IMG/VR virus record: IMGVR_UViG_3300024262_000099
Coordinates: 1 to 38,998 of that record
Strand: one strand, 5' to 3'
Source of the DNA: a virus
DNA length: 38,998 nucleotides
Shown here in pieces: positions 16,533 to 37,609 of the stretch (its first letter is position 1; each line of letters opens with the position of its first letter). The notes beneath the pieces were generated by a model. The model was not told the origin of the DNA and searched no databases. It saw only the letters and a list, made by a program, of their open reading frames with translations. The translations under genes and the position numbers were made by a program.

Positions 16533-16552
16533 ACACCTCCACGTTTTTTGTA

Positions 16553-17010: not shown

Positions 17011-17019
17011 TTCTATTTT

Positions 17020-20284: not shown

Positions 20285-20302
20285 TCTTTTATAAAATTAC
20301 TA

Positions 20303-20331: not shown

Positions 20332-20420
20332 TAAAACTGCCACCAAGAGAAACACCTTTCGCCAATAGGCAATAATAAGGTCAATACAAAGATTCTCTCA
20401 GGCACACATCTTAACCCCCT

Positions 20421-20717: not shown

Positions 20718-20727
20718 TCCAAATACT

Positions 20728-21410: not shown

Positions 21411-21416
21411 AATAAT

Positions 21417-21692
21417 ATGAACAAAGAAGAATGGCTACGAGAATATATGATGGATCGTGGACTTACATCTAATGAAGCAGATGAGTACCTACGGCTCAAT
21501 CGGAAATGTAACTTTGAGGGGATGATCAGAAAGTGGAGAAAGGAGCATGATCAGGAAGAAAAATGCTATGAGTATGCGGAGGAGTATAGAAAAGAATATA
21601 GCCCTAATCCTGCCAGACAAGCACTCAATATTTATGAGATGGCATCTAGGCAGAGGAATAGGGACAATCCAAATCAATCATTTAATTTCTAA
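21417..21692 (+). CDS. Hypothetical charged protein
   Basis: 91 residues, helical and highly charged ('MNKEEWLREYMMDRGLTSNE', 'KCNFEGMIRKWRKEHDQEEKCYEYAEEYRKEY'), ending in a polar tail. It lies six bases after the OB-fold candidate and could be its partner. Not recognised. Confidence 0.65.
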   Translation: MNKEEWLREYMMDRGLTSNEADEYLRLNRKCNFEGMIRKWRKEHDQEEKCYEYAEEYRKEYSPNPARQALNIYEMASRQRNRDNPNQSFNF

Positions 21693-21702
21693 CTTTACTA
21701 AC

Positions 21703-21903
21703 ATGACAACCAAAAATATTGGTTACCTTCTAACTGTAACATCAGCGATTTACTTCCTGTTGTTATGCGGTTCAATGGTTTTTATAGCCTCCTTTGGCTC
21801 TTTCTCAGCCTTTGCACCAACAAAAGACTTCTTCCTAATCTTAGGAACATCTGCTGTAAACGCTGTACTTATTTTATTACTAACCATTGTAAGCAATGAT
21901 TAA
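21703..21903 (+). CDS. Two-TM membrane protein
   Basis: 66 residues starting at the ATG at 21703, after a TTTACTAACATG leader; the frame is open further upstream but overlaps the previous gene. Two hydrophobic spans, 'IGYLLTVTSAIYFLLLCGSMVFI' (about 6-28) and 'FFLILGTSAVNAVLILLLTIV', form a hairpin. It is the first of a membrane-associated trio with the next two genes. Confidence 0.7.
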   Translation: MTTKNIGYLLTVTSAIYFLLLCGSMVFIASFGSFSAFAPTKDFFLILGTSAVNAVLILLLTIVSND

Positions 21904-22042
21904 ATTTAATCCAGAACTCAAAGAGTTCAAGACTATCTGGGGCTGCTGGTGGGGCATGACATGGAGAATCTCTGTCGCCTACCTAGTGTTCTGTTTAGCC
22001 CTTGGCGTCTTAGTCAAGACTTTCGGATTCTTATATTCATAA
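21896..22042 (+). CDS. 48-residue single-TM protein
   Basis: MIKFNPELKEFKTIWGCWWG then 'MTWRISVAYLVFCLALGVLVKTFGFLYS'. One membrane span covers residues 25-45. The start overlaps the stop of the previous membrane gene by 8 bases, and the gene ends 10 bases before the lysozyme-like gene. It is probably made with them. Confidence 0.6.
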   Translation: MIKFNPELKEFKTIWGCWWGMTWRISVAYLVFCLALGVLVKTFGFLYS

Positions 22043-22052
22043 AAACAAAAAT

Positions 22053-22703
22053 ATGTTTCAATACAAACCAATCAATACTTCTAAGCCTAAGAAAAAGACC
22101 AATACAGTTATCGCCCTAATAGGGGCAGCTATCTTAGCCCTATGGACTATCGGGAGCTGGAACACCAAAGCATACTGGGATACGGGCAGAAACCCAGATG
22201 GGGAGAAGCACCCAAATATCGCTATCTCTAAAGTAGGCGATTTAGCTGATTTCGCTCGACTAAATTGTGACAAAGAGACTCACAGGAATATCGACAAAAT
22301 TATTTGGTACAGTAAGGAGAATGGCATTAAGCCTGAGATGGTGCTCGCAATCTCGTGGAGCGACTCAACGTGTGGGAAAAACCTCACAACAAATTGGAAC
22401 TTTGGCAATTACGGTAATAATGATAGGGGAGATAGGAGGGGGTACCCAAATGCGTTTAGTGGCTATAAAGCTATCGTTGATGGGCTTGCTAACGGAACAC
22501 ATATGACGGGCTTATATCGCTTGGGAGAATTATCACAAGGTGGTAGGAGCGTTCTAGGTACCCAATTCAGTTGTGCCGACGCTCCTACTCCGTATAAGTG
22601 TTGGGCTAGCTCAGAGTATAATTGGAATCATAACGCAAAAGCTGCTTTGCAAATTATTACTGGTGATATGCGGCTAGATGAGAGTTGGGAATTTAGACTT
22701 TAA
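22053..22703 (+). CDS. Membrane-anchored lysozyme-like protein
   Basis: 216 residues. A Lys-rich start and a TM span 'VIALIGAAILALWTIGSW' (about 19-36) anchor it with the C-terminus outside. The outer domain reads 'IDKIIWYSKENGIKPEMVLAISWSDSTCG' then 'NFGNYGNNDRGDRRGYPNAFSGYKAIVDGL', the shape of a glucosaminidase/transglycosylase (lysozyme) fold. The usual catalytic Glu is not obvious; the equivalent place reads SWSDSTCG. From memory, similar AIAWADTSLGK-type domains are frequent in Patescibacteria. It lies in the early arm, away from the lysis genes. Confidence 0.65.
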   Translation: MFQYKPINTSKPKKKTNTVIALIGAAILALWTIGSWNTKAYWDTGRNPDGEKHPNIAISKVGDLADFARLNCDKETHRNIDKIIWYSKENGIKPEMVLAISWSDSTCGKNLTTNWNFGNYGNNDRGDRRGYPNAFSGYKAIVDGLANGTHMTGLYRLGELSQGGRSVLGTQFSCADAPTPYKCWASSEYNWNHNAKAALQIITGDMRLDESWEFRL

Positions 22704-22712
22704 TTATTTAAA

Positions 22713-22958
22713 ATGCTTTGTAAAAACTGCAACAAGAAAAAGGTTCATGCTCGTTCTCTATGTTATACATGTTATCAAAGAGACGAACTTAGAAGGACAG
22801 CTATCTACTTCCAGCTAAAGGTCTGGGGGATAGAGATAATCATTCGCAGAAGATTTGGTACTTACAATGAATATATGCGTTGGTATCAAAGGAAGAATCG
22901 AAAGAGAATAAACGCTAATGCTAGGAGATTGTATCATAAGAAAAAATTTATTTCATAA
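22713..22958 (+). CDS. Small zinc-finger basic protein
   Basis: 81 residues. 'MLCKNCNKKKVHARSLCYTCY' gives two CxxC pairs at 3-6 and 17-20, a single zinc finger as in small phage DNA-binding proteins. The rest is very Arg/Lys-rich ('RKNRKRINANARRLYHKKKF'), fitting nucleic-acid binding. Function unknown. Confidence 0.65.
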   Translation: MLCKNCNKKKVHARSLCYTCYQRDELRRTAIYFQLKVWGIEIIIRRRFGTYNEYMRWYQRKNRKRINANARRLYHKKKFIS

Positions 22959-22969
22959 TTTTACTAACC

Positions 22970-23203
22970 ATGTTACAAAGACACATTTACGAAATCATCG
23001 TAGTTGACCACGCAAAAGGTACAATTATTGGTGATGAAAAGATAGTAGCTGCATCAACAGAATCAGCTATGTCTAAGATTGATTTACCTTCTATCTGCAA
23101 GAAGGCTAAAATCACAACAGACGATGCAGAGTTTATTATACTTAATCTTGGTTCTCTCCGAGCAGTACAGGAGGTACAAGAAACTAAAGTTTCTAATCTA
23201 TGA
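22970..23203 (+). CDS. Hypothetical protein
   Basis: 77 residues: 'MLQRHIYEIIVVDHAKGTII', 'STESAMSKIDLPSICKKAKIT', 'AEFIILNLGSLRAV'. A small alpha-beta protein of the kind found across phage early regions. Its stop overlaps the next ATG (ATGA). Confidence 0.65.
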   Translation: MLQRHIYEIIVVDHAKGTIIGDEKIVAASTESAMSKIDLPSICKKAKITTDDAEFIILNLGSLRAVQEVQETKVSNL

Positions 23204-23424
23204 AACAAGAATTATTAAACGAATCTAAATTAAAAGACTGTACTGGTGAATTATTTGGTGAGATGAAAGCAGATTATTTACTCTACGATAATTCTCTAAG
23301 TATAAATTACGATACTAGAACAGAAGTCTGTCTTTATATAGAAAACGAAGACGGTAAAAGCGAACCACTTGTTATGAAGCAGGAGCATCGTGAGTGGACT
23401 CCAGTTTGGACAAGAAAGTTATAG
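23200..23424 (+). CDS. Hypothetical protein
   Basis: 74 residues, acidic, predicted mostly beta ('SLSINYDTRTEVCLYIENEDG'). Coupled to the upstream gene by ATGA. The 65 bases that follow it hold only a weak stem CTCTTA/TAAGAG. Not recognised. Confidence 0.6.
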   Translation: MKQELLNESKLKDCTGELFGEMKADYLLYDNSLSINYDTRTEVCLYIENEDGKSEPLVMKQEHREWTPVWTRKL

Positions 23425-23489
23425 CCTTTCATCCTGCTCTTATTCCTAGGGGGTTTAAGAGTAGGTGTAAGAATATAATTAACAATACT

Positions 23490-23708
23490 ATGTTTTTTTC
23501 AAAACCTACACCACAGGACAAACCAAACAAGAAATTAAAATATGAATTATATGATTGGGTGATGACCAAGATTGGTATAAAGGCTCTTATCACAGGGGCT
23601 AGAGAGAGGGCAGACGATAATTTTGATTACCAGCTAATCTATATAAATAAGGTTGGTGATATGAAAGAGTTTAAATCAGATGAGGATTTCATTGAAAAGA
23701 AATTATGA
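23490..23708 (+). CDS. Hypothetical protein
   Basis: 72 residues starting MFFSKPTPQDKPNKKLKYEL at 23490, after the AACAATACTATG leader; the frame is open from 23394 but that part overlaps the previous gene. It ends 'NFDYQLIYINKVGDMKEFKSDEDFIEKKL'. Its stop overlaps the next start. Confidence 0.6.
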   Translation: MFFSKPTPQDKPNKKLKYELYDWVMTKIGIKALITGARERADDNFDYQLIYINKVGDMKEFKSDEDFIEKKL

Positions 23709-23866
23709 TAAACAAAAAAATACTAAAACTAAATCAACTCAAAAGAGAGACTCTTGCTATCCCCAAGTTTATAAAAGAGGAGATGGAGGCAAGGCTAAAG
23801 AGAGAGATAGAAGCAGAGATATCACTAGAGCATTTTAATCAAAATACACCTTTAATTCTTAAATAA
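23705..23866 (+). CDS. 53-residue helical protein
   Basis: MINKKILKLNQLKRETLAIP then 'KFIKEEMEARLKREIEAEISLEHFNQ': a single long charged helix, possibly a coiled coil. The ATG overlaps the previous stop (ATGA). Not recognised. Confidence 0.55.
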   Translation: MINKKILKLNQLKRETLAIPKFIKEEMEARLKREIEAEISLEHFNQNTPLILK

Positions 23867-23872
23867 TTTATT

Positions 23873-24430
23873 ATGGCTAATACTAACACTGGTGACTGCT
23901 CCACTGGTGACTACTCCACTGGTGACTACTCCACTGGTGACTGCTCCACTGGTTACTACTCCACTGGTTACTGCTCCACTGGTAACCGCTCCACTGGTAA
24001 CCGCTCCACTGGTAACTGCTCCATAAGTAAATTTTCATCAGGGCATTTTTCAACAATAGATTATAGTGGTTATGGATGGTTCAATAAGCCTTGTAATAAA
24101 ATGTGGGATGAAGTAGATACACCTAATTTTACTGATTTTGAAATAGCCTACTGGATTTCAGTAGAAAATATGACAAAAGAAGAAAAGAAGGAAAATCCTA
24201 CTTACAAAACAACTGGAGGATTCTTAAAATCAGTAGACTATAAAACAGCATGGAAATTATTCTGGAGAAAAACATCAGAAGAAAACAAGAAGAAGTTTCT
24301 AAATCTTCCTAACTTTGATTGGGATATATTCACAGAGATTACAGGAGTGGAGAGAGAGGAACAAGCACAAGAGATGACAATGGAGGAAGTATGCAAAGAA
24401 CTAGGTCGTACTATTAAGATTAAAAAATAA
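23873..24430 (+). CDS. Pentapeptide-repeat phage protein
   Basis: 185 residues. Residues 5-50 are nine tandem STG-x-x units (GDCST, GDYST, GNRST and so on), giving a right-handed beta-helix-like stalk. The C-terminal domain 'FNKPCNKMWDEVDTP', 'MTKEEKKENPTYKTTGGFLKSVDYKTAWKLFW' and 'LPNFDWDIFTEITGVE' matches a layout I recall from many phage proteins of unknown role. Pentapeptide stalks can mimic DNA, so a role against host DNA-binding enzymes is possible but unproven. Confidence 0.7.
   Translation: MANTNTGDCSTGDYSTGDYSTGDCSTGYYSTGYCSTGNRSTGNRSTGNCSISKFSSGHFSTIDYSGYGWFNKPCNKMWDEVDTPNFTDFEIAYWISVENMTKEEKKENPTYKTTGGFLKSVDYKTAWKLFWRKTSEENKKKFLNLPNFDWDIFTEITGVEREEQAQEMTMEEVCKELGRTIKIKK
23888..24022 (+). 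repeat. Nine tandem 15-bp repeats inside the pentapeptide gene
   Basis: Nine in-phase copies of ACTGGTGACTGCTCC, with changes concentrated at the GAC/TAC/AAC and TGC/TAC/CGC codons. The unit number can change by slippage without breaking the frame, so repeat length is likely to vary among relatives. Confidence 0.9.
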
Positions 24431-24451
24431 CCCTTAAAGACTAATACTATG
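24429..24451 (+). repeat. Duplicated 23-bp gene-start leader, copy 1
   Basis: The same 23 bases, beginning AACCCTTAAAGAC and ending in the start ATG, precede three early genes: here, at 24884-24906 and at 25161-25183. The first two share 28 bases. No SD lies in it. It is either a conserved translation-start element or a scar of gene duplication. Confidence 0.85.
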
Positions 24452-24676
24452 GAAAATGAAATAAAAAGCGAAGTATCTTTAGCAATATGTTTAGCAATGA
24501 TAGAGCTATTAAAGACAAACACTATCCCCAAAGAAACAAGCCCTGCTAGTGGATTGATTCAGTCACAACTAAACATTGCATTTACAGGTTGTTTAAAGAG
24601 ATTTGGAAATAATCTGAATCAAGACGGATTAAATGAGATTGGAAGCGAGATAACAAAACTTTTAGATAACCAATAA
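24449..24676 (+). CDS. Hypothetical protein
   Basis: 75 residues, helical: 'MENEIKSEVSLAICLAMIEL', 'SGLIQSQLNIAFTGCLKRFGNNLNQDGLNEIGSEITKLL'. It begins at the first copy of the duplicated leader. Not recognised. Confidence 0.6.
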   Translation: MENEIKSEVSLAICLAMIELLKTNTIPKETSPASGLIQSQLNIAFTGCLKRFGNNLNQDGLNEIGSEITKLLDNQ

Positions 24677-24683
24677 TAATACT

Positions 24684-24899
24684 ATGAAGTGCAAACATTG
24701 TAATGAAAACATAGAACTGCGGAATCCAAGTGGCTACTGTGACCACCTGTATTATCCTGAGAATTGCGGTGTATGTAACAACGACCCAAGCCCACATGAT
24801 ATACTAGGAGAAGTCAGGAGAATCCTCGAAGTGCCTGAATTTGCCTCCATTATCGAATTTGTGAAGGAACTTAAAGAAACAATAACCCTTAAAGACTAA
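24684..24899 (+). CDS. Small zinc-binding protein
   Basis: 71 residues. CKHC at 3-6 and the later C-x2-C 'CGVCN' with nearby CDH give four or more metal ligands at the N-terminus. A helical tail 'VRRILEVPEFASIIEFVKELKETI' follows. Its last codons (LKD-stop) lie inside the second copy of the duplicated leader. Confidence 0.6.
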   Translation: MKCKHCNENIELRNPSGYCDHLYYPENCGVCNNDPSPHDILGEVRRILEVPEFASIIEFVKELKETITLKD

Positions 24900-24906
24900 T
24901 ACTATG
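24884..24906 (+). repeat. Duplicated 23-bp gene-start leader, copy 2
   Basis: Identical to 24429-24451. Here it also encodes the last residues of the upstream gene, so the sequence works both as coding DNA and as leader. Confidence 0.85.
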
Positions 24907-25053
24907 GAGAAATGTAATTGCCTATGCCACACAGATAGCGAGACTCATGGTGCAGCTTATGACAAAAATGCTTGTTATATCTATGGCTGTAAGTGTGGGG
25001 CAAATAAGCCTATGACACAGCCTGTTAGAACGGAACAACAACAAACTAATTAA
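24904..25053 (+). CDS. 49-residue cysteine-rich protein
   Basis: MEKCNCLCHTDSETHGAAYD then 'KNACYIYGCKCGANKP': CNCLCH and CKC clusters plus His form a likely zinc site. The start ATG ends the second leader repeat. Function unknown. Confidence 0.55.
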   Translation: MEKCNCLCHTDSETHGAAYDKNACYIYGCKCGANKPMTQPVRTEQQQTN

Positions 25054-25064
25054 CAACTACTACT

Positions 25065-25157
25065 ATGGAATATACACTAACAGATTTATTTGCCAGTATG
25101 GGATTCGGCTTCGTTATAATGTTGATTTACTGTGGAATTAAGTACTTAATTGATTAA
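25065..25157 (+). CDS. 30-residue membrane peptide
   Basis: MEYTLTDLFASMGFGFVIML then 'IYCGIKYLID': one TM span over residues 10-27, preceded by the usual TACTACTATGG leader. Peptides like this are common in phage early arms; the target is unknown. Confidence 0.5.
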   Translation: MEYTLTDLFASMGFGFVIMLIYCGIKYLID

Positions 25158-25160
25158 CTT

Positions 25161-25183
25161 AACCCTTAAAGACTAATACTATG
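25161..25183 (+). repeat. Duplicated 23-bp gene-start leader, copy 3
   Basis: Identical to copies 1 and 2 over 23 bases and placed at the start of the 84-residue gene. The flanking sequences differ, so the identity is local to the leader. Confidence 0.85.
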
Positions 25184-25435
25184 AAGAATAAATTATATTT
25201 TTATTTAAAACACAATGTCTTTAAAATCCAAGAAGGGACTGTTCTGCCAACATATTTTCTAATAATAAGATTCATACTATTCCCTACTGATGTTTGGACT
25301 TGGTATCTAGCAAACAAGGCGAGAATAAGACAAGACATTTATATGGATGGTTATGTAATAGATGATGTTTTTATATCAAGATTTGAGATAATGGAAAGAA
25401 AAAATAATCCTGATGCTACTTTTACACTTAAATAA
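25181..25435 (+). CDS. Hypothetical membrane-associated protein
   Basis: 84 residues with a hydrophobic stretch 'LPTYFLIIRFILFPTDVWTW' (about 23-42) followed by a polar tail. It could be a re-entrant or monotopic membrane protein. It starts at the third leader repeat. Confidence 0.6.
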   Translation: MKNKLYFYLKHNVFKIQEGTVLPTYFLIIRFILFPTDVWTWYLANKARIRQDIYMDGYVIDDVFISRFEIMERKNNPDATFTLK

Positions 25436-25442
25436 TAATACT

Positions 25443-25733
25443 ATGAAAACTATAATCAAAATCTTTCTAGCTTTAATGCTAGTCCTATCTCTCGGTTACT
25501 ATGCTAATGCTGACAGCTACACCCAGTGTAAGATAGACAGGGTAATAGCTCAAAGACAGGCAAGGGATATAGCCGAGCAACTGGATTACACTGTTATGTT
25601 CTTGAATGATTCAATAAGCTTGGTAGTGAACCTGTTTAATGTCGAGGACAACATCCAATTCCTCTATCTCCTTGACGAATGGAACGCTCTACGGGATGAG
25701 ATACAAGCTTATTTTATTTATACTAGCCGATAA
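25443..25733 (+). CDS. Small secreted protein
   Basis: 96 residues from the ATG at 25443 (leader AATAATACTATG; the 30 bases of open frame upstream overlap the previous gene). The signal peptide 'MKTIIKIFLALMLVLSLGYY' cleaves after ANA-DSY. The mature part is helical ('KIDRVIAQRQARDIAEQLDY', 'NIQFLYLLDEWNALRDEI'). It acts outside the membrane; an immunity or exclusion role is possible. Confidence 0.65.
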   Translation: MKTIIKIFLALMLVLSLGYYANADSYTQCKIDRVIAQRQARDIAEQLDYTVMFLNDSISLVVNLFNVEDNIQFLYLLDEWNALRDEIQAYFIYTSR

Positions 25734-25754
25734 CCTAAACCCCCTAAAGCTGGG

Positions 25755-25952
25755 ATGATTATGAAATTTATTATAAATGCAAAAAATCACTGGTGGGAAA
25801 AGCCAGTTCAAATAGTAGTACTTTGTATTAACGAAAAAATGGCTATTAAGATGGCTAAAGAGAAAGTTCCTAGAAAATACTATAAGACAGTTTTGGCTGT
25901 TGACACAATAGTCTGGGAGAAAGAGATTGAATGTTGTTGTAACAATGAATAA
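25755..25952 (+). CDS. Hypothetical protein
   Basis: 65 residues, basic: 'MIMKFIINAKNHWWEKPVQI', 'INEKMAIKMAKEKVPRKYYKTVLAVDTIVW', ending in a Cys-rich 'ECCCNNE'. An alternative start is two codons in. Not recognised. Confidence 0.6.
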   Translation: MIMKFIINAKNHWWEKPVQIVVLCINEKMAIKMAKEKVPRKYYKTVLAVDTIVWEKEIECCCNNE

Positions 25953-25979
25953 CCCCTATCAAGACCCGTCAGGTCTAAA

Positions 25980-26255
25980 ATGGCAGAAAATATTATGACA
26001 CAAGAATCAGACATACAAGAAGCCATAATGGCTATTGATGAGATGGAGTTAGCACCACCTCCCACTCCTGAACAGACAGCTACAATGGCACATGAAATGA
26101 CAATGGTGATATATCGCCTAGCCTTTGAGCGTGTTATAGACCCTCTCATTCTCAACAGGGCAAAAATCTCCCCAGGGGAAGTGGGGAATATACTTGCTAA
26201 AGAATTGACTAATCTTTTAAATTCTGAAAGAGATAAACTAACTAAAACTATATGA
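25980..26255 (+). CDS. Hypothetical helical protein
   Basis: 91 residues: 'MAENIMTQESDIQEAIMAID', 'PPPTPEQTATMAHEMTMVIYRLAFERVIDPLILNRAKISPGEV'. It is helical with a Pro hinge. The stop overlaps the next start (ATGA). No family recognised. Confidence 0.6.
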   Translation: MAENIMTQESDIQEAIMAIDEMELAPPPTPEQTATMAHEMTMVIYRLAFERVIDPLILNRAKISPGEVGNILAKELTNLLNSERDKLTKTI

Positions 26256-26446
26256 ACAGAGTAGAGAAAATACTAAAGGCTTACGATGAGATGATAGCCA
26301 ATCGTCCTAAAAACGTTATCAATAAGGATTTTGATGTTTATCTTGATTCTAAAGCCTTCCTAAAGAAACACCTAGAGGAGATGTATGAACAGGGTATAGA
26401 GGATGAAGAAGATAGAATCAGTACAATCCAAATTAAGGATAGATAA
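26252..26446 (+). CDS. Hypothetical acidic protein
   Basis: 64 residues, helical ('MNRVEKILKAYDEMIANRPK', 'DSKAFLKKHLEEMYEQGIEDEEDRI'). It is coupled to the gene before it. Not recognised. Confidence 0.6.
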   Translation: MNRVEKILKAYDEMIANRPKNVINKDFDVYLDSKAFLKKHLEEMYEQGIEDEEDRISTIQIKDR

Positions 26447-26455
26447 CACAAACCT

Positions 26456-26608
26456 ATGAAATACATCGACTATCTAAAGAAGAACAAGGAGATACTAGAG
26501 GACAGTGACTTCTCAATAGAGAACGGAGAGGTGAAGGATGCTCACATCAGCGTCAGAGATAAGCAGAGTTTAAGAAGCAAAAACAAATGGAAGAACTTTA
26601 CTATCTAA
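26456..26608 (+). CDS. 50-residue hypothetical protein
   Basis: MKYIDYLKKNKEILEDSDFS then 'IENGEVKDAHISVRDKQSLRSKNKWKNFTI'. It fills the gap between neighbours with a short A-rich leader (AACCTATGA). Small and charged; not recognised. Confidence 0.5.
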   Translation: MKYIDYLKKNKEILEDSDFSIENGEVKDAHISVRDKQSLRSKNKWKNFTI

Positions 26609-26617
26609 AAAGCCAGT

Positions 26618-26643
26618 ATTTACTAACCACTCAAAGACATGAA
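26618..26643 (+). repeat. Second duplicated leader family, copy 1
   Basis: A 26-base block beginning ATTTACTAACCACTCAAAG and covering the ATG of the gene at 26639 is repeated exactly at 26848-26873. A shortened form (TTAACCACTCAAAAGTATGA) precedes the gene at 27064. Confidence 0.85.
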
Positions 26644-26872
26644 ATACTATATTAACGGAGTAGAAACAACCGAGAGTAAGCTAATGGATTTATTTAATAA
26701 ATCTGAACAACATGGTAGGGATTTCTATAGGGTTGGTGATGAATGGTTTTCGCTTATTGTTATAGATGATAGAATATTTGATGGCACTATCAGCAATGTG
26801 AAGTCATGGAATGGTAAACGACTTACAAAAGAAGAAATTGAAAAAGAATTTACTAACCACTCAAAGACATGA
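26639..26872 (+). CDS. Hypothetical protein
   Basis: 77 residues: 'MKYYINGVETTESKLMDLFN', 'DFYRVGDEWFSLIVIDDRIFDG', 'RLTKEEIEKEFTNHSKT'. It is alpha-beta. Its C-terminal FTNHSKT is encoded by the second copy of the leader repeat, so this end may have been created by the duplication. The stop overlaps the next start. Confidence 0.6.
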   Translation: MKYYINGVETTESKLMDLFNKSEQHGRDFYRVGDEWFSLIVIDDRIFDGTISNVKSWNGKRLTKEEIEKEFTNHSKT

Positions 26873-26873
26873 A
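26848..26873 (+). repeat. Second duplicated leader family, copy 2
   Basis: Exact copy of 26618-26643. Here it encodes the last residues of the upstream gene and carries the ATG at 26869. Confidence 0.85.
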
Positions 26874-27051
26874 GAAGTTTAAGACTAGACCACAAATAAG
26901 GTTTACTAATATATGGAAAGACAAGAATACATTTAATTGCTTGTTTGAATTTTCATTTTGGTTTCATAAAAATGATGCAGGATATTGGAGTTACGACTTC
27001 AACTTATGTTTATTTGGATTCCAAATATGTATTAACCGTAAATTCTATTAA
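26869..27051 (+). CDS. Hypothetical aromatic-rich protein
   Basis: 60 residues, unusually rich in Phe/Trp/Tyr ('NCLFEFSFWFHKNDAGYWSY', 'DFNLCLFGFQICINRKFY'). It is predicted beta rather than membrane. Coupled to the upstream gene by ATGA. Not recognised. Confidence 0.55.
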   Translation: MKKFKTRPQIRFTNIWKDKNTFNCLFEFSFWFHKNDAGYWSYDFNLCLFGFQICINRKFY

Positions 27052-27063
27052 CCACTCAAAAGT

Positions 27064-27381
27064 ATGAAACAACATATTACAACAGAACAGTGGGATGAGC
27101 TAGAACAGGAACAAAAAGTTCAACTTTATCTGGCAACACCAATTAGAAGTGTTGGTGTAAACAAGGAGAAAAACATTATTGAAGGAGAAATAGCAACTCC
27201 AAACATAGGTCAAATGATTGAGTTTTTGGATTGTGATGAAATGGCTTTATTTGAAGATGGTTGGGTATTAGAATATCTAAGAAAAGATAAACATACTGGC
27301 TCTCATCATAATACACAAATCCTCTGCGATGCACTCTGGGAAGCTGTAAAAACTAAACTCCAAAAAGCTACCAAGACCTAA
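27064..27381 (+). CDS. Conserved-type phage hypothetical protein, last early gene
   Basis: 105 residues: 'MKQHITTEQWDELEQEQKVQ', 'TPNIGQMIEFLDCDEMALFEDG', 'NTQILCDALWEAVKTKL'. From memory this layout (IGQMIEFL ... CDALWEAVK) recurs in small proteins of many Bacillota phages, function unknown. It ends the rightward arm. A stem GCTACC/GGTAGC (27367-27396) covers its stop, but without a U-run. Confidence 0.65.
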   Translation: MKQHITTEQWDELEQEQKVQLYLATPIRSVGVNKEKNIIEGEIATPNIGQMIEFLDCDEMALFEDGWVLEYLRKDKHTGSHHNTQILCDALWEAVKTKLQKATKT

Positions 27382-27475: not shown

Positions 27476-27571
27476 ATGAAGTTTGCAGATGATGAAATCG
27501 TAGCTGTTCTTGTGATTATATTCCTTGTGGAATACTTCTTATTTTTTCTTTGTGGAATAGTAGGCTGTTAG
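27476..27571 (+). CDS. Possible 31-residue membrane peptide at the convergent junction
   Basis: MKFADDEIVAVLVIIFLVEY then 'FLFFLCGIVGC': a polar start and one long TM span. It is read toward, and overlaps by 33 bases, the end of the leftward two-TM gene. The upstream CAGTGTATAATG looks like a -10 box merged with the ATG. The reading frame is short, so this is tentative. Confidence 0.35.
   Translation: MKFADDEIVAVLVIIFLVEYFLFFLCGIVGC
27519..27552 (+). terminator. Weak terminator of rightward arm
   Basis: TATTCC-TTGT-GGAATA (27519-27534) followed by the pyrimidine run CTTCTTATTTTTTCTTT. The stem is short and A/T-rich, but it is in the right place between converging operons. On the other strand no U-run follows. 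Confidence 0.4.
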
Positions 27572-27754
27572 CTCTACTAGCCCCTTAACTACCAAGCGGA
27601 AACCTGCGAATGCAGCTCCAAGTAGAACTGATGGCCATGCTACATCACTCCAAGTAGTTGCTTGTTCAAGGACAGGGTAGAAGGCGATAAGGAACCCAGC
27701 CACAAATGACATGAGGGTAGAGATTCCGTAACGAATTAAAGTCTGTTTATCCAT
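27539..27754 (-). CDS. Two-TM protein, probable holin
   Basis: 71 residues: 'MDKQTLIRYGISTLMSFVAG' opens a first TM (about 9-27), and 'WPSVLLGAAFAGFRLVVKGLVEL' a second (about 40-62), with a basic end 'YYSTKKK'. It is the last gene of the late operon, just after the endolysin, and has the charged C-terminus typical of small holins. Holins open the membrane to let the endolysin reach the wall. The 39-residue nested frame overlaps its start. Confidence 0.6.
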   Translation of the reverse strand: MDKQTLIRYGISTLMSFVAGFLIAFYPVLEQATTWSDVAWPSVLLGAAFAGFRLVVKGLVELTAYYSTKKK

Positions 27755-27866
27755 TTGAAATGGTGGTTAGAAAGTAGATAGCTGTTGCTATTGTTGATAA
27801 AATTAAAAGCCTGAGATGCCAGTAGGGGTCTTCTATTTGTTGAATGTTCGATATAACATTGTCCAC
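27747..27866 (-). CDS. Nested 39-residue single-TM lysis-type peptide (GTG start)
   Basis: GTG-started frame VDNVISNIQQIEDPYWHLRL then 'LILSTIATAIYFLTTISNG'. It begins inside the last 34 bases of the endolysin gene and ends inside the first codons of the two-TM gene. A GGAGG lies a few bases before the GTG, one of very few SD-like sites in the genome, although it also encodes endolysin residues. The TM span covers about residues 18-36. It may be an antiholin or accessory lysis peptide. Confidence 0.5.
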   Translation of the reverse strand: MDNVISNIQQIEDPYWHLRLLILSTIATAIYFLTTISNG

Positions 27867-28432
27867 ATCTCCTCCCTCGTAACTGCATCATGTGGTTTTG
27901 TACCATCTGAGATTTTCATTCTCTTGACCCAGTCCTGAGCTTCCTTAGCCCATTCTGAAGCCTGTTCAGGATATTCAAAATAAGGTTCAGCGTTAATAGC
28001 CGACTTCCAATAGTTTTTATCCTCTCGTAATTCAAAGTGTAAATGTTCTCCCTGTGATTTACCTGTATTACCTCCTTTGCCTATAATATCACCTGCTTTT
28101 ACTTTCTGCCCCGTAGAGACGTAAACTTTTTCTAGGTGACCATATAAGGTAAAATACACTTTATCGTCTATAAAGTGCCTTAAAATGCAATGTACACCAT
28201 ATACAGAGCCTGACTTATCCCCCTTATAGTAGTTTCCTGTTGATTCTGAATCTACATCAATAACCTCACCATCTGCTACTGCAAGTATTTCTTTCTTAGG
28301 TTCGTTCCATGTTCTTAGGTCAGTACCATGATGAAAAGAGTGTCTAGGGTCAGTCCAACATACATAAGCAGGTGACTTAGCTCCGAAATTCTGTGTTATG
28401 AATGGAATATTTGTTGGGTACTGAATCTTCAT
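27833..28432 (-). CDS. Endolysin: M23 peptidase with SLH-like C-terminus
   Basis: 199 residues. Metal ligands of the M23/LytM fold are intact: H34 and D38 in 'FHHGTDL', H99 in 'LYGHLEKVYV', and H130-x-H132 in 'GEHLHFELR'. Residues about 157-199 ('WAKEAQDWVKRMKISDGTKP', 'DAVTREEMWTMLYR') match an S-layer homology repeat, which binds secondary wall polymers. There is no signal peptide, so it needs a holin. It lies between a Pro/Glu-rich protein and membrane peptides in the late operon. Confidence 0.88.
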   Translation of the reverse strand: MKIQYPTNIPFITQNFGAKSPAYVCWTDPRHSFHHGTDLRTWNEPKKEILAVADGEVIDVDSESTGNYYKGDKSGSVYGVHCILRHFIDDKVYFTLYGHLEKVYVSTGQKVKAGDIIGKGGNTGKSQGEHLHFELREDKNYWKSAINAEPYFEYPEQASEWAKEAQDWVKRMKISDGTKPHDAVTREEMWTMLYRTFNK

Positions 28433-28450
28433 ACCTTTACGGGTTATGTA

Positions 28451-28717
28451 TTATTTTAGCTCCTTATAGCGTGCTCTTTCCTCAGCATTCATTTTAGGCC
28501 ATCCAATAGCTTTAAGAGCCTCTAGCTCATCTACTGGTTCCTCTGTAGGCTCCTCTACTACAGGCTCCTCTACTACAGGTTCCTCAACTACAGGTTCCTC
28601 AACTGGTTTAGGTGCTACTTTTTTACCGAGCCTCTGATAAGCAGAAGGATCGAAACAATTTGGAAGGATGGCAGTCATCTTGCCAGTTTCCTTATTCATG
28701 ACTTGTATAAGTTCCAT
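28451..28717 (-). CDS. Pro/Glu-rich linker protein
   Basis: 88 residues. The N-terminal 'MELIQVMNKETGKMTAILPN' then a VEEP-x5 rod (about 37-62), and a C-terminal 'ELEALKAIGWPKMNAEERARYKELK'. It resembles small phage structural or linker proteins found between the ejection proteins and lysin. No enzyme motif. Starts after TTAACCCAAAATACCATGG without an SD. Confidence 0.65.
   Translation of the reverse strand: MELIQVMNKETGKMTAILPNCFDPSAYQRLGKKVAPKPVEEPVVEEPVVEEPVVEEPTEEPVDELEALKAIGWPKMNAEERARYKELK
28548..28607 (-). repeat. Four tandem 15-bp repeats encoding VVEEP units
   Basis: Four successive 15-base units on the + strand starting GGCTCCTCTACTACA, two identical and two with silent changes. 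They encode the PVVEE rod and keep the frame if copy number changes. Confidence 0.85.
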
Positions 28718-28768
28718 GGTATTTTGGGTTAAGATGTTAGTATTATATCATATTGTTTAATCTGTCTA

Positions 28769-28796
28769 TTGACATTAAGGTAGTTTTGTGTATAAT
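28769..28796 (+). promoter_or_regulatory. Perfect sigma70 promoter in the late operon, opposite strand
   Basis: TTGACA (28769-28774), a 16-base spacer ending TTGTG, and TATAAT (28791-28796): both hexamers match consensus. Transcription would begin around 28803, exactly at the ATG of the following 39-residue frame. It points against the surrounding late genes and lies in the 193-base gap 28718-28910. Confidence 0.75.
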
Positions 28797-28802
28797 AGTG
28801 GT

Positions 28803-28922
28803 ATGTTAGTTGGAATACTACGACTCATCGGCTTGTTATTACTTTATATTGGTCTTTGGATACTCCATCCATTATTTGGGATCGCAGCTACAATATGGAT
28901 CATCACTGAGCTACTTGACTGA
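28803..28922 (+). CDS. 39-residue two-TM peptide from a leaderless transcript
   Basis: MLVGILRLIGLLLLYIGLWI then 'LHPLFGIAATIWIITELLD'. Almost wholly hydrophobic, with a Pro break suggesting a helical hairpin. It begins seven bases after a perfect TATAAT, so its mRNA would be leaderless, and its last 12 bases overlap the end of the opposite-strand ejection-type gene. Being driven by its own promoter, it could be made in a quiescent or early stage, for instance for superinfection exclusion. No family recognised. Confidence 0.6.
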   Translation: MLVGILRLIGLLLLYIGLWILHPLFGIAATIWIITELLD

Positions 28923-30599
28923 TTTAGCTTTTTGAAACATATTTTTAATAATGGTATTCGGATCGTTCATAAACTTGAACCATTCTTTTATGGCTTTCTG
29001 AGTTGCTGCTTTTGCAAGTAAGGATGGATTCAATGATAGAATTCCTGCAACAGCTTCACCACCACTAAATATATCAGTAAAGTCTATAAGTCCTTTAGAG
29101 CTCTTTTTGGCATCTACAAGTGTTCTGTGGACAACATCTTTTTCAATCGATTTCAATGCAGCATACTGATTTCTAAGTGCTTGATATTCTGATCCAGTTG
29201 CGTTAGTAATAAGCTCATCAAGATTTTTTCTCATGTTATTCACAACAAGTGCATCAATATAAGCTTTAGAAGCTGAATCATAACTTGGATTCCTGTAAAA
29301 AGATTCTAAACTTTGATTAAGAATTTTAATTGCTTCTTGAGCCTCATCAGGAGAGTATGAAACTTTGGAATATCTTTTAATCTTTTCTTTAGCGTATTTT
29401 ACTATTTCGGGCCTTTCTGTTTGTAATACCTTATTTTTAACAACTTTATCTAATTCAGATCCGACATCCTTTAGGTCTAATTTAGAACCTTTTCCAGTAG
29501 CTTCTTTTGCAAGTTCATCATATTGCTTAAAAATACCTTTTTTTGTTTGATCAATAGAATCGGAAAATTGTTTTAAATTCTGTGGCAACCCTTCAACCCC
29601 TTCTCCGAATTCATCAACTAACTTTAGGTTATTTTCATTTTCAATAATTGTATCTACTGCTTGTCTGGCGTCCTGTTTCCATTTTTCCATACCAGAGAGA
29701 GTTTTCTTTGAACCAGTTAGTGATGGCTTGATCCCCTTCTCTAATCCTTCTTCAATGGCTTGCTCTGCCCTAACTATAGAAGCATTCTTAATATTTTTTC
29801 TGGCAACATCTAATGCTTCTTCTCCAGCTTTTAACCCCTTTCTGCTAAGAGCTAATGTTTCTTCTACCCCCTTAACTGCCCCCCTTCCTCCAACTAATGT
29901 TGCCATTATTTCAGCAATAGCACCTGCAAATTGAACTCCTGTTTTTTGATTACTCGGTAAATTATCATAAGCCTCTACTGTTTTTGCTATTACCTCTTGT
30001 GTGTTTTGACCAATATTATCATAAATCACATTACCTTCTTCTTCTCCTAGTGTTGCTATTAACCCTTTTTTTAATAAATCTTTTCCTAACTCAATACCAC
30101 CTTCAACAGCTGGTTGTAATGCAGCACCAACTACAGATGTGACAGGGGCTAGCCCTGCTTTAACATCTGCTGTGAACTCTTTAACCCTTCCTTCTATCGG
30201 TTCACCTGAGAATAACTTCTCTCTACCTTCTGCTCTTATTTGCCTAGATGATTCTATTTGTCCTTTGTATATATCAGATGTTCTTTGACTTAATCCTGGA
30301 TTCTCCTGCAATTCACCAAGTTTTGAACTTATATCAGCACTCGGTGTACCTTTCTTCATCATAGCCTTAGCAAGATTCTCCTGAGCTGGAGATTGTGGAG
30401 CAATAGACATAGCTGGCACAGACTGAGCAATACCAGTAGAAGGCATAACATCACCAATAGTTGTTTGATATTTAGAGCCATACTTTTGGTTTATCAAACT
30501 TTCAACCTTTTCAGGTGAAGTTTTTGCCATATCTATTGCAAGTTTTCTTTTCTCAATAGGTATAGTTGTATCGTTTAAATAGTTCTGTATTGTTGACAT
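28911..30599 (-). CDS. Large internal/ejection-type virion protein
   Basis: 562 residues, Lys/Glu/Ala-rich and mostly helical, with one weakly hydrophobic stretch 'VQFAGAIAEIMATLVGG' near residue 220. It has coiled regions such as 'KQFSDSIDQTKKGIFKQYDELAKEATGKG', and ends 'WFKFMNDPNTIIKNMFQKAKSVK'. It is paired with the 834-residue CHAP protein just upstream (gap 2 bases) and lies after the tail genes, as internal proteins do in short-tailed phages. Injection through the envelope is inferred from position. Confidence 0.65.
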   Translation of the reverse strand: MSTIQNYLNDTTIPIEKRKLAIDMAKTSPEKVESLINQKYGSKYQTTIGDVMPSTGIAQSVPAMSIAPQSPAQENLAKAMMKKGTPSADISSKLGELQENPGLSQRTSDIYKGQIESSRQIRAEGREKLFSGEPIEGRVKEFTADVKAGLAPVTSVVGAALQPAVEGGIELGKDLLKKGLIATLGEEEGNVIYDNIGQNTQEVIAKTVEAYDNLPSNQKTGVQFAGAIAEIMATLVGGRGAVKGVEETLALSRKGLKAGEEALDVARKNIKNASIVRAEQAIEEGLEKGIKPSLTGSKKTLSGMEKWKQDARQAVDTIIENENNLKLVDEFGEGVEGLPQNLKQFSDSIDQTKKGIFKQYDELAKEATGKGSKLDLKDVGSELDKVVKNKVLQTERPEIVKYAKEKIKRYSKVSYSPDEAQEAIKILNQSLESFYRNPSYDSASKAYIDALVVNNMRKNLDELITNATGSEYQALRNQYAALKSIEKDVVHRTLVDAKKSSKGLIDFTDIFSGGEAVAGILSLNPSLLAKAATQKAIKEWFKFMNDPNTIIKNMFQKAKSVK

Positions 30600-30601
30600 A
30601 T

Positions 30602-33106
30602 TTAAAATGGGTTATTTTCTTCGTCAGGTAAAGTAAAAGTGTCTTGTTGTGGTGTATCTGGGAAAATATCTGATTTTATTTCACCAGTAATCACCCTATT
30701 CATTTGCTCAACGCTATCAAAACCAAATCGTTTTGCTTTTGCTTTTGCTGATGCTTCATATTCACTGATCATTCTGTCTAACTGATCAGTAAATTGATCT
30801 TCAGTCATATCGACATTCGGCTTGTATCGTTTTAATCTTTGGAATTCAGGCTCACTAACAGCAACCCCTGAAATCTCTTTTACAAAAGAAACTAATGCTT
30901 CTCCCGTTAAAGCATCTAACTGACGGTAGTATTTTTGCTCATTAGTTTGACCTATCCCAAGAACAGATTCGCCAACCCTCCCAGTTACACGTTTTGCAGT
31001 ATCCCACCATCCACTAATACCACCCCCTTCTTCCTGTAATAATTTATAAACATCTTTTGCTTCTTGTAGGTTTTCTCTTAATTGTACAAATTTCATAAGC
31101 TTATCACCTTCGCTTGTTCCCGATTGATCAGTTGCCTTATCATTCACAAATGATTGAAATGTTTGATTCCCCAATCCTTGCTGTTTACGATAAGCTAAAA
31201 TTTCATCTAATTGATATTGATTAATTGATGATGGGACTCCATATTGAGCAGCCTCTGACGGAGACAAAGGTTTTACTTTTGGATCTGTGACAGCTTTTAT
31301 ATATTCATCAAGCCATCCTTGTGCTTCGGCCATTTTTCTATATTTTGTAGCATCTGTTGGTGTTACAAGACCTGATTTTATTTGTGCCATAATTGCATCC
31401 CTTCCTGTCAATTGTTTACCCATTCCTTGCCCACCAGGTAAAACAGGTGGTGTATAAGAGGTAACAGATGCTAACTCTTTTCCATTAGGATTCCATTTTG
31501 GAGTGGTTTTTGCAGGATCAAAGAACCCGATAATACCAGAAGCTGCAGGATCAGTAACATGAGAGGTATCTACCATTTCATCCCCATTTCTATTGGAATC
31601 TTTAATATCAAAAGACCCATCTTCATAAACCTTAGTAACAAGTCCTGTATGTCCCGTCTGACCTATCGTAGCTAAATTATAACCATATTTACTTATAAAT
31701 GCTCCACCTGCTACTGGAATATCAGAATTGTTATTCTCCATTTTAGATGCAAGCGTATCTCCAAATATTTTAGCACCAAAATAATTGTTTACATATTCAC
31801 CGCATTGCCCCCCCGTTGAACCAACAGGAACATTATCATCAACAGAACCATCAGCATATGTAACACCATCTCTTGACGGCCAAGTAAATGTTTCCTGATA
31901 ATATTTTAAAGCATAATCATTCCATTCCATTTGATTATCAAATTCTTGTTGAGCAGTTTTAGTATCTGCAAAACCAGCTTTTTGGGCGAATGCTTGTGCA
32001 GAAACCGCATCACTTTTTAATAATTTCTGATAATATAGGAAGTTCTTTTGCTCTGCCGTCATACCCACAGTCATTGCCTCATTCATTGATTTGATGTAAT
32101 CGGGGCTAGAAATCTGAGCATTAAACCTCATAGTATCTAAATTTTGTACAGTTTGTGCCATCCCCATATCTCCGCCAAATAAATTTGACATAGACACTAA
32201 GTCCATACCTTGGAATGATCCAGGAGCCATCTTCCCTATAAAATCCATGGCCTTTTGAGTGTTGGCTGCTTGCTGATTCTCTAAATCAACCCTCATATCC
32301 TGTATAGCCTTTCCTGTTTGAGCCAAATTGTTTGAAATAGAAGTAGCTAGTTTATCATTGCCGTCTTTTTGAGCTTTCTCTAATTCCTTTAGTTGACGTG
32401 CTCTAGATTGCATAGCAGAATCGAGCCTAATCTTTGCGTTTGTAAGCTGTTCTGTGACACGCCCCTGGAAACCAGATACTGCTGCTGCGGCTGATCCTGC
32501 AACAGGACCCTCTCTACCAGGTAAAAACTCTGCAGCCATACCAGAAGTTGCAGATTGCCCCTTGAATTTGCTTTGTTCGTACTCTGAAAGATTAACCTTA
32601 TTCATAGCCTCTATTTGTTGCTCTAAATAAGTTTTATCCTCCTCTTGTGTTTTAAACAATTCATCTTCTGCAGCCGTAATATCTGCCAGTAAAGCATCTG
32701 AACTGGTTTCAAGATAAGGATTCTCAAAATATCCAGTTCCAGCTGAACTCAATCCACTCAATGCTTCTTGTGCTTTTTTCTTATTAAGTCTTTGTTGAGC
32801 TGTTTCCTCCGACATTTTATTAACTGTCTCCTGGATTGATTTCAGTGTTCCTCCACTAAAGCCTAGATCCTGCAAAGTCTTTGTATAATCAGTTGCAGTA
32901 AAAGTAGGTTCAGCTTGTGTGGTCACAGGAGGGGCTACAGGGGTTTCAACCTTAGGTGTTTCAATCTTTGGTGTTTCAACTTTAGGAGAAGCGCCAGTGA
33001 ACGGCCCCATTGATTGTGGTTCACTTTGTAGTTTAAATTGAGCCACAGTTAGAGCTTTATTCTTCTTCTTGGCCTCATTAAATTTTTGAGTAAATGTTTG
33101 TGCCAT
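30602..33106 (-). CDS. Ejection/internal virion protein with CHAP peptidase
   Basis: 834 residues. The N-terminal 400 are helical and Gln/Ala-rich, with a short Pro-rich 'VETPKIETPKVETPV' repeat at about 42-56. Residues about 430-525 are a CHAP amidase: catalytic Cys in 'GGQCGEYVNNYFG', His in 'GQTGHTGLVTKVYEDGSFDI', and the closing 'DSNRNGDE'. The C-terminal 300 are helical. In short-tailed phages such proteins cross the envelope at entry, so a wall-cutting domain is fitting. It is the largest gene in the window. Confidence 0.8.
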   Translation of the reverse strand: MAQTFTQKFNEAKKKNKALTVAQFKLQSEPQSMGPFTGASPKVETPKIETPKVETPVAPPVTTQAEPTFTATDYTKTLQDLGFSGGTLKSIQETVNKMSEETAQQRLNKKKAQEALSGLSSAGTGYFENPYLETSSDALLADITAAEDELFKTQEEDKTYLEQQIEAMNKVNLSEYEQSKFKGQSATSGMAAEFLPGREGPVAGSAAAAVSGFQGRVTEQLTNAKIRLDSAMQSRARQLKELEKAQKDGNDKLATSISNNLAQTGKAIQDMRVDLENQQAANTQKAMDFIGKMAPGSFQGMDLVSMSNLFGGDMGMAQTVQNLDTMRFNAQISSPDYIKSMNEAMTVGMTAEQKNFLYYQKLLKSDAVSAQAFAQKAGFADTKTAQQEFDNQMEWNDYALKYYQETFTWPSRDGVTYADGSVDDNVPVGSTGGQCGEYVNNYFGAKIFGDTLASKMENNNSDIPVAGGAFISKYGYNLATIGQTGHTGLVTKVYEDGSFDIKDSNRNGDEMVDTSHVTDPAASGIIGFFDPAKTTPKWNPNGKELASVTSYTPPVLPGGQGMGKQLTGRDAIMAQIKSGLVTPTDATKYRKMAEAQGWLDEYIKAVTDPKVKPLSPSEAAQYGVPSSINQYQLDEILAYRKQQGLGNQTFQSFVNDKATDQSGTSEGDKLMKFVQLRENLQEAKDVYKLLQEEGGGISGWWDTAKRVTGRVGESVLGIGQTNEQKYYRQLDALTGEALVSFVKEISGVAVSEPEFQRLKRYKPNVDMTEDQFTDQLDRMISEYEASAKAKAKRFGFDSVEQMNRVITGEIKSDIFPDTPQQDTFTLPDEENNPF

Positions 33107-33155
33107 TTAGTTTAAGGTTAGGATTCGTCGTCTTTTAAGATTAATTATTTTATTC

Positions 33156-34721
33156 TTAGTATGCTTCCCAGAGTATGTTTATAGCCTGTTGGGATGTAAA
33201 AGCAGTACAGTAGAAATCAAAAGTAGTAGCTCCTACTGAGCGAATATCAAATTGGAAATCCTCTGCTGCGAAATGTACAATAGCCGCTGCCCCTATATTA
33301 GAAGCATACGATGGTCCTGCTGAAGAATAGTTTGTATGGATTCCATCAAGCCCAGTTTCAGCGGAATAAGTTAGTACACCACCTGGAACAAATGTAATTG
33401 TACCAGCAGCTTGCACATAATAAGTTGCTCTAATATATTTAGGTGTCCTTCCAAGCCCATGTGTTACTTGGCTTGTTTGCGTTGCAGCAGTTGGGTCCCA
33501 TGCAACTGTACCAGAAGTCCATGAATGGTAATGTATGCCAGCGACTTCACTTCCATCTGTTAGTGTATCTTTATTAGCTACAGACATTTGAGCTGCTGTA
33601 GGGGAAACCATTTGGAATTGAGTACCATCATGTACAACAGATACTATTTGACCTGCTTGGATATCCCCATCTGTTAATACCTCATCATCATTCTTCAGAA
33701 TAGCTAAAGCCCCTAAAGCATTTACATTAAGAGTAGCTGCACCTGTATTAGCTGTGTTTGCTTTGAAGTGGAATAATTCACCAGCTGCATAAGCAGCAGG
33801 AGCTGGTGTTAAAGTAATTACGTAAGTGTCACTTGCTTCTGCATCAGCAGCATACGACCAATCAGATTGCTGTACTCTCGCAGCTATTGAAGCAGGTGTA
33901 GCAACAAGACTAGCACCAGTTCCACCAGTCGCTGAACCATTCTCTGTTTCTGTTTGTGTAGCTACTTCTACCTTACCAGCTACAGTCGTAGAAGCATTTG
34001 CTACCGTTCCTCCCGCTGCGTTTGTTACCCATGCACCACCCTCTCTCCATTGAGTTTGTCCCACAGTTGTATTATAGACAGCAATACCGCCAGCAGGAGG
34101 AGTTGTTAAAGCATCACGTTCCGCAGTAGTCAATTGCATAAAGCCAGAAAGTTCATTGTCTACTACAGCACCACTATCATCTCCACGAGTAATTCTCCAT
34201 CTCTTAAGTGAGTCGTCAAAGTAGAATTTAGGTTTTACAGTTTGATCATTATGAACAACAAAGTTTACATCTGAAGCAGTCTCATCTCCAACCTTCCAAT
34301 TTGTACCGCCAGAACCAATCGTACCATTGAGTGCATTAATCATCATTTCAAAGTTCACCCCTGAGATCTGTCCGACAACAGGATCGTCTTGATCATGATC
34401 TACAGCATAAGCGGCTGTATTAGAAGTTGTATAGTCAAGTCCACACATATCAACCCCACGAACCGCACCTGTTAGGGTAAGTCCATCGGCAGAAATTGAA
34501 GTGGTTGGGCACCAGACACTTTCTACATATCCGTCAGCACTCCCGATTCCTATTAGACAATCTCCACGGATTACAGCACCATCCTCATCTAAGGGTGGAT
34601 CAGTAAAAGTGATAGTTGTATCGGAAGAAGAAATAGGAGCAGCCAAACGTGGATTAGGGGCATCATATTGACCCCATTGGAAGTATCTTAGATTGCTTGG
34701 CATAATTGACACATCAGCCAT
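33156..34721 (-). CDS. Tail fibre/spike protein
   Basis: 521 residues. An N-terminal adaptor-like part 'TTITFTDPPLDEDGAVIRGD' is followed by 'YFDDSLKRWRITRGDDSGAV' and 'MQLTTAERDALTTPPAGGIAVYNTTVGQTQWREGGAWV', a run common in phage fibres. A Gly/Ala/Thr-rich shaft ('AAYAAGELFHFKANTANTGAATLNVN') and a C-terminal beta domain ('IRATYYVQAAGTITFVPGG ... FDFYCTAFTSQQAINILWEAY') complete it. It sits downstream of an inserted HNH gene and the nozzle candidate. Confidence 0.75.
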   Translation of the reverse strand: MADVSIMPSNLRYFQWGQYDAPNPRLAAPISSSDTTITFTDPPLDEDGAVIRGDCLIGIGSADGYVESVWCPTTSISADGLTLTGAVRGVDMCGLDYTTSNTAAYAVDHDQDDPVVGQISGVNFEMMINALNGTIGSGGTNWKVGDETASDVNFVVHNDQTVKPKFYFDDSLKRWRITRGDDSGAVVDNELSGFMQLTTAERDALTTPPAGGIAVYNTTVGQTQWREGGAWVTNAAGGTVANASTTVAGKVEVATQTETENGSATGGTGASLVATPASIAARVQQSDWSYAADAEASDTYVITLTPAPAAYAAGELFHFKANTANTGAATLNVNALGALAILKNDDEVLTDGDIQAGQIVSVVHDGTQFQMVSPTAAQMSVANKDTLTDGSEVAGIHYHSWTSGTVAWDPTAATQTSQVTHGLGRTPKYIRATYYVQAAGTITFVPGGVLTYSAETGLDGIHTNYSSAGPSYASNIGAAAIVHFAAEDFQFDIRSVGATTFDFYCTAFTSQQAINILWEAY

Positions 34722-34728
34722 AGTATTA

Positions 34729-35151
34729 TTAGTTAGTAGTTAAAGATTTTTCTATTGACCATCCATATTTATAAATTCTCATTCCTAAAGTGCTTCTTTT
34801 TATCCCTAATTTTCTTGCCCATCTAGGTATCGTCATTGTTAAGCCATTATAGGTAACGTTAAAATTATCTCTTCGATTATTACTTTGCTCCTTAGGAGTA
34901 GACCACTTACAGTTCTCTGGGCAATAATCACCGTCATTATCTATCCGATCAAGTTGTAACCCTTTTTTGTAAGATTCCAGCATATCTTCTTCAAAGTTTT
35001 TGAACTTTCTCCATCTTTCACAAACTTTTATTCCTCGCCCTCCATATCCATTGTAGCGTGGATTCTTTTCGTTCGTACACCTTCCAACCATGTTCCCCCA
35101 AACATCAAATAGTATGTGTTTTCCCCTATATCTTTGCTGGGCCGTAGCCAT
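34729..35151 (-). CDS. HNH homing endonuclease
   Basis: 140 residues with the common phage layout: 'RYNGYGGRGIKVCERWRKFKNF' and the HNH core 'LQLDRIDNDGDYCPENCKWSTPKEQSNNRR' (about 65-94). A C-terminal DNA-binding part with 'MTIPRWARKLGIKRSTLGMRI' follows. It lies between nozzle and fibre genes with tight spacing. It looks like a selfish free-standing homing nuclease inserted between structural genes; both neighbours appear intact. Confidence 0.85.
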   Translation of the reverse strand: MATAQQRYRGKHILFDVWGNMVGRCTNEKNPRYNGYGGRGIKVCERWRKFKNFEEDMLESYKKGLQLDRIDNDGDYCPENCKWSTPKEQSNNRRDNFNVTYNGLTMTIPRWARKLGIKRSTLGMRIYKYGWSIEKSLTTN

Positions 35152-35168
35152 AGTAATTTAGTTAAAGA

Positions 35169-37600: not shown

Positions 37601-37609
37601 AATTATTAT

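Follow-up and report, generated by a model that had tools for sequence, protein, structure and literature searches.

An antisense promoter and a hydrophobic microprotein gene behind the last virion gene of an uncultivated podovirus: a candidate exclusion gene with the layout of P22 sieA

Introduction

Some of the proteins by which phages exclude superinfecting phages are small membrane proteins, T4 Imm among them. In the temperate phage P22 (NC_002371) the last ejection gene, gene 16, ends at position 13313, and sieA lies antisense to it from 13830 to 13336, 22 bp from gene 16, and has its own promoter at 13861–13891. SieA is an inner-membrane protein, and mutations that escape it are located in the ejection genes 16 and 20 (PMC10883804). 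The position of sieA is kept among P22-like prophages while its sequence diverges to about 25% identity, and other small membrane exclusion proteins are HK97 gp15, Sie2009, and TP-J34 Ltp (PMC10883804). The P22 “ant moron” is the sole moron site of the P22-like morphogenetic cluster and the slot in which sieA lies; it varies rapidly, and the ant morons of P22-like phages include genes that do not serve exclusion (PMC2629481).

Here we describe a locus with a similar layout in IMG/VR virus record IMGVR_UViG_3300024262_000099, analyzed over a stretch of 38,998 nucleotides (positions 1 to 38,998; hereafter the window). An original prediction, made from the letters of the window, had proposed that a perfect promoter drives a leaderless, two-TM peptide against the late operon, and had offered exclusion, lysis timing, or abortive defense as its function.

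Results

The genes of the window run rightward from 18756 to 27381 and leftward from 27539 to 38922 and from 660 to 18553. As the gene order runs across the ends of the window in relatives such as L052, the window probably represents the near-complete, circularly permuted genome of an uncultivated short-tailed phage (podovirus). At the end of the late array, tail proteins are followed by an 834-aa CHAP protein and a 562-aa helical protein; past a gap of 193 nt come an 88-aa protein, an M23 endolysin, and a holin-like protein (Table 1). This gap is large, other late gaps being mostly shorter than 30 nt. Judged from its place after the tail genes and the CHAP protein, the 562-aa protein would be an internal (ejection) protein, and the 834-aa protein is likewise a putative ejection protein. 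The AlphaFold2 model of the 562-aa protein is all-alpha, of low confidence (pLDDT 46) and too poor for identification, and homology to P22 gp16 was rejected since there was no similarity signal. No integrase was detected in the window, so that expression of the peptide from a prophage is not supported for this phage. An integrase or serine recombinase is present in four relatives; the group therefore includes temperate phages, and prophage expression is possible within it. The only clue to the host is three weak terminase matches, in Proteobacteria and Planctomycetota bins.

Table 1. Features at the end of the late array in the window and at the homologous junction of relatives.
Feature	Genome	Position or length	Strand	Remark
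Sigma-70 promoter TTGACA-16-TATAAT	Window	28769..28796	+	12/12 match; predicted to drive the antisense unit
Possible back-to-back promoter TAGACA-15-TATAAT	Window	28742..28768	-	Candidate for the downstream 88-aa, M23, and holin-like genes; weak because its spacer is 15 nt
39-aa hydrophobic microprotein	Window	28803..28922	+	ATG at predicted transcription start; positional counterparts in nine relatives
Tail-to-tail overlap of microprotein gene with end of 562-aa virion gene	Window	28911..28922	.	12 nt
All-helical protein of 562 aa, final virion gene in late array	Window	28911..30599	-	Placed behind the tail genes and the 834-aa CHAP protein
834-aa virion protein with CHAP domain	Window	30602..33106	-	Pfam CHAP 7e-6
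88-aa protein, first gene past gap	Window	28451..28717	-	L052 and L062 have a small gene that looks similar
M23 peptidase endolysin	Window	27833..28432	-	Pfam M23 1.2e-21
Holin-like membrane protein, 71 aa	Window	27539..27754	-	Read from sequence only
Junction ORF	L051	68 aa	antisense	
Junction ORF	L052 (identical to L053)	37 aa	antisense	MSCILPIIYILFIIFAFSIHWALGLILIALLFVPNQN
Junction ORF	L054	39 aa	antisense	MVRLVDFAGYIAGAGFICFLFSIHWILGLMFVMALLATR
Junction ORF	L055	54 aa	antisense	
Junction ORF	L058	49 aa	antisense	
Junction ORFs	L059	124 aa + 48 aa	antisense	
Junction ORF	L060	20 aa	antisense	MYWICFALLIVWLMYRGYID
Junction ORF	L062	35 aa	antisense	
Junction ORFs	L064	41 aa + 34-aa paralogue	antisense	Further membrane or secreted genes

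Several other features of the genome were recorded. Shine-Dalgarno motifs are depleted in the window, and TAAC (often CTAACC) is found mostly 13–15 nt before the ATG; it occurs at most 30 nt upstream of 31 of the 47 genes, e.g., those at 24449, 25181, 26639, 26869, and 27064. The motif is enriched upstream of genes in all tail-protein relatives checked (27–71% against a background of 3–9%), and may possibly be a new start signal and a potential pointer to the host. A domain of about 63–85 residues, present or absent among relatives, lies at 36336–36524 inside the tail protein gene 35169–36950 and is found three times in L054 (9409–9591, 10418–10606, and 12044–12232), as if it were moving between virion genes. 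The window also carries a sulfotransferase-like gene (14335–14901; PHROG 3347, E 2.9e-12), and the C-terminal 40 residues of the M23 endolysin resemble an S-layer-homology-type motif that is common to loci L008 and L055.

The promoter in the gap had been predicted to be the best on the + strand, and it is the sole 12/12 sigma-70 match on that strand, with TTGACA at 28769–28774, a spacer of 16 nt and TATAAT at 28791–28796. Order-2 simulations gave an expectation of 0.03 perfect promoters per window for both strands together. The window has one further perfect match, at 18731 on the - strand, where the early and late gene blocks diverge; its presence suggests that this phage relies on host-type promoters. 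There, overlapping divergent promoters (+ 11/12, - 12/12) share bases between 18691 and 18731 and are likely the early/late switch.

The six nucleotides AGTGGT separate the -10 box from the ATG at 28803, so that the A is the seventh base after the box, as had been claimed, and the mRNA would therefore be leaderless, with transcription starting on the A of the ATG. The same spacing of six nucleotides occurs in L052 and L060 and, as a start predicted from sequence only, fits a leaderless mRNA in all three genomes. The TAAC motif used by most genes of the window is absent from this ORF. No intrinsic terminator was found after the ORF, and terminators are not enriched in the 20–39 kb half of the window either. 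Over the ORF no promoter was found that could drive an antitoxin RNA from the opposite strand, Rfam and tRNA searches gave no match, and the antisense RNA is not unusually structured (z -1.1).

The frame 28803–28922, with the end of the stop at 28922, has 39 codons and translates to MLVGILRLIGLLLLYIGLWILHPLFGIAATIWIITELLD. Running against the late genes of the minus strand, it shares its last 12 nt with the end of the virion gene and is as hydrophobic as had been described (GRAVY 1.84). Among base-shuffled versions that stay open only 1.5e-4 are as hydrophobic. Three others of the 96 ATG frames of 30–60 aa in the window are, however, at least as hydrophobic; hydrophobicity alone thus proves nothing and relatives are needed. 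A codon usage test of the frame was uninformative. The two TM segments of the original prediction are not established, as AlphaFold2, run on the single sequence, predicts one continuous helix of residues 2–38 (mean pLDDT 97.7). No homologue of the peptide was found in PHROGs, Pfam, INPHARED phages, or 13 contigs found early.

For comparison we used uncultivated IMG/VR contigs with the same late gene order, found by searches with the 593-aa tail protein; only alignments of this protein reached the junction gap, which relatives found with the terminase, M23, 834-aa, or 562-aa proteins did not. The Manatee Spring podoviruses, whose terminase matches at about 40%, seemed too distant for a comparison of synteny. 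Coordinates of the relatives refer to their own + strand, which corresponds to the - strand of the window. The original prediction was to stand or fall with conservation of frame and promoter in syntenic relatives, and it stood this comparison. In nine of 10 comparable relatives, i.e., in 10 of 11 genomes counting the window, the corresponding junction holds an antisense membrane ORF of 20–124 aa that faces the same virion gene tail-to-tail (Table 1). The exception is G014, where the junction is 1 nt long without an antisense ORF and where M23-like and holin-like genes are present. The ORF overlaps the end of the virion gene by 4–56 nt in L051, L052, L054, L055, L058, L060, and L062 and by 11 nt in L064, while L059 has a gap of 5 nt instead. 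The junction peptides of the relatives have from one to several TM segments. In L064 the antisense array of membrane and secreted genes (3866–4948) holds, besides the tandem 41- and 34-aa paralogues, a 142-aa protein with a signal-peptide-like start.

The counterparts of the 562-aa protein are very divergent (15–23% identity over the alignment), so that their correspondence rests mainly on gene order. The next sense genes past the junction are of lysis type in the window and in several relatives; those of L054 are not recognizable lysis genes, and L058 has no sense gene after the junction. As read from these gene orders, the conserved neighbor of the antisense ORF is the last ejection-type virion gene and not the lysis genes. 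An antisense hydrophobic ORF is present at eight of nine target junctions, whereas of 48 late gaps elsewhere that measure at least 30 nt five hold one (Fisher p=6e-6, a value that is indicative since the genomes are related); L058 and L059 do not enter the count, as the scanned stretch has no sense gene past the junction in either.

Across the approximately 368 kb scanned there are five perfect promoters, where about 0.3 would be expected by chance, and four of these are at the junction site (window, L058, L059, and L060). Most other relatives have candidates weaker than 12/12, with uncertain assignments in L051, L055, L062, and L064. The -10 box of L052, TAAGGT with an extended TG, is a weak one, and in L054, L055, and L062 leaders with the TAAC start motif of the group take the place of the six-nucleotide spacing. 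The distance from promoter to gene varies among the relatives.

The junction peptides of most relatives cannot be aligned with each other, and one shared function is therefore not proved. The window peptide aligns convincingly with none, the comparison with the first L064 peptide reaching only z 2.9. Two pairs are related. The peptide of L052 is homologous to that of L054 (z 8.4), and change in the FSIHW-LGL core common to both is mainly synonymous; apart from W, G, and one L, almost every conserved residue is encoded by different synonymous codons, the serine being TCC in one and AGT in the other. The 41-aa and 34-aa peptides of L064 are tandem paralogues (z 12). Synonymous drift within a homologous pair together with tandem duplication indicates that it is the protein that is under selection.

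Discussion

The promoter, the antisense position and the recurrence of a hydrophobic ORF in nine of 10 relatives support well the prediction of an independently expressed membrane peptide. The locus is also a variable insertion in a syntenic late array, absent in G014 and variable in the others, with its own promoter by sequence (12/12 in the window and three relatives), as is typical of a moron; the intrinsic terminator that a moron may bring along was not found.

Of the functions originally offered, exclusion fits best because the conserved neighbor is the last ejection-type virion gene and because the layout equals that of P22 sieA: a membrane-protein gene antisense to the late operon, with its own promoter and tail-to-tail with the last ejection gene, a role that the 562-aa protein would fill here. 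As with sieA, the place is held across relatives while the sequence diverges. In contrast, the window peptide has 39 residues and one predicted helix, against the roughly 160 residues and several TM segments of SieA, and P22 is temperate while an integrase was not found in the window. The peptide shows no similarity to P22 SieA (BLASTP E 0.97), and the SieA motif FxRYPxEAxxFNK is absent from it. Membership in the SieA family was therefore rejected on size, TM number, similarity, and motif, while the layout agrees. The junction also resembles the ant moron of P22-like phages in being one hypervariable slot past the ejection genes, filled with genes that are, here by prediction, independently expressed; the P22 slot, however, holds regulators (mnt, arc, ant) and larger genes, whereas the junction holds membrane microproteins that are sometimes leaderless. 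HK97 gp15, Sie2009, TP-J34 Ltp, and T4 Imm are, similarly, small proteins said to block DNA entry but they are larger and belong to other phage types. No PHROG or Pfam family was found for the window peptide in scans.

We give an even chance to the explanation that the peptide acts in superinfection exclusion at DNA entry and is carried as a rapidly exchanged moron. The accessory gene would have its own transcription; it runs against the late genes, and its end meets that of the last ejection-type virion gene. Its consensus promoter would be read by the host sigma-70 RNA polymerase without phage activators, so that the peptide could be made early in infection while the late genes are silent; in temperate relatives a prophage may be an alternative source. 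Translation would begin directly at the 5′ ATG, and the peptide would enter the cytoplasmic membrane and disturb the ejection-protein channel that passes the DNA of a second short-tailed phage across the membrane, as P22 SieA does.

The main competitor, which we regard as unlikely but well above the others, is that the gene is indeed an antisense membrane moron but one that serves another purpose than exclusion, for example in altering host membrane or transport, or different purposes in different phages, and that the site is one tolerated cargo slot. The wide differences in size and sequence (20 aa to 124+48 aa), the L064 array with its 142-aa secreted protein and a 69-aa membrane protein, and the non-exclusion genes of P22-like ant morons (PMC2629481) all agree with this, yet a membrane peptide is found at every occupied site, which is narrower than random cargo. 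That such a peptide should instead time lysis, as a regulator or antiholin acting on the adjoining M23/holin-like cassette, is improbable. Lysis-type genes do follow in the window and several relatives, and a possible lysis-gene promoter stands back-to-back with that of the peptide, but the gene content past the junction in L054 and L058 disfavors it, G014 has M23-like and holin-like genes without the peptide, and a consensus sigma-70 promoter points to an early time of expression, not a late one.

It is just as improbable that the antisense RNA is the functional product, damping late transcription or translation of the virion gene, and that the ORF is incidental. The promoter is the best conserved element, and read-through antisense RNA is likely as there is no intrinsic terminator past the ORF; against this are the hydrophobic ORFs at 10 of 11 sites, the protein-level conservation in two pairs, the unremarkable RNA structure, and the variable distance from promoter to gene. 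Type I toxins are of comparable small size and hydrophobicity, and the peptides of 20–54 aa resemble them, but a role as a type I-toxin-like peptide in abortive infection or prophage maintenance is very unlikely given that an opposing antitoxin promoter was not found and that the predicted leaderless start would provide no 5′ UTR on which antisense control could act; abortive defense, the third function originally offered, has no positive support. A spurious hydrophobic frame behind a chance promoter is hardly credible: other spurious frames of the window are equally hydrophobic and codon usage is no guide, but promoter and hydrophobic ORF recur in relatives.

A wider form of the exclusion explanation is that unrelated short-tailed phages independently reached one layout, in which a constitutive membrane exclusion gene is placed antisense and tail-to-tail with the ejection gene it blocks, and that here this gene has shrunk to leaderless, channel-jamming microproteins of 20–40 residues, too fast-evolving for sequence search and missed by annotation. 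We put this forward tentatively, as more doubtful than exclusion itself. If true, it suggests convergence with P22 sieA in phages without detectable similarity in these proteins, and exclusion genes would be findable by position and strand, i.e., as a membrane ORF on the antisense strand past the last ejection gene, and not by sequence. It would also provide a minimal blocker of phage DNA entry, of 20–40 aa, that is directly testable.
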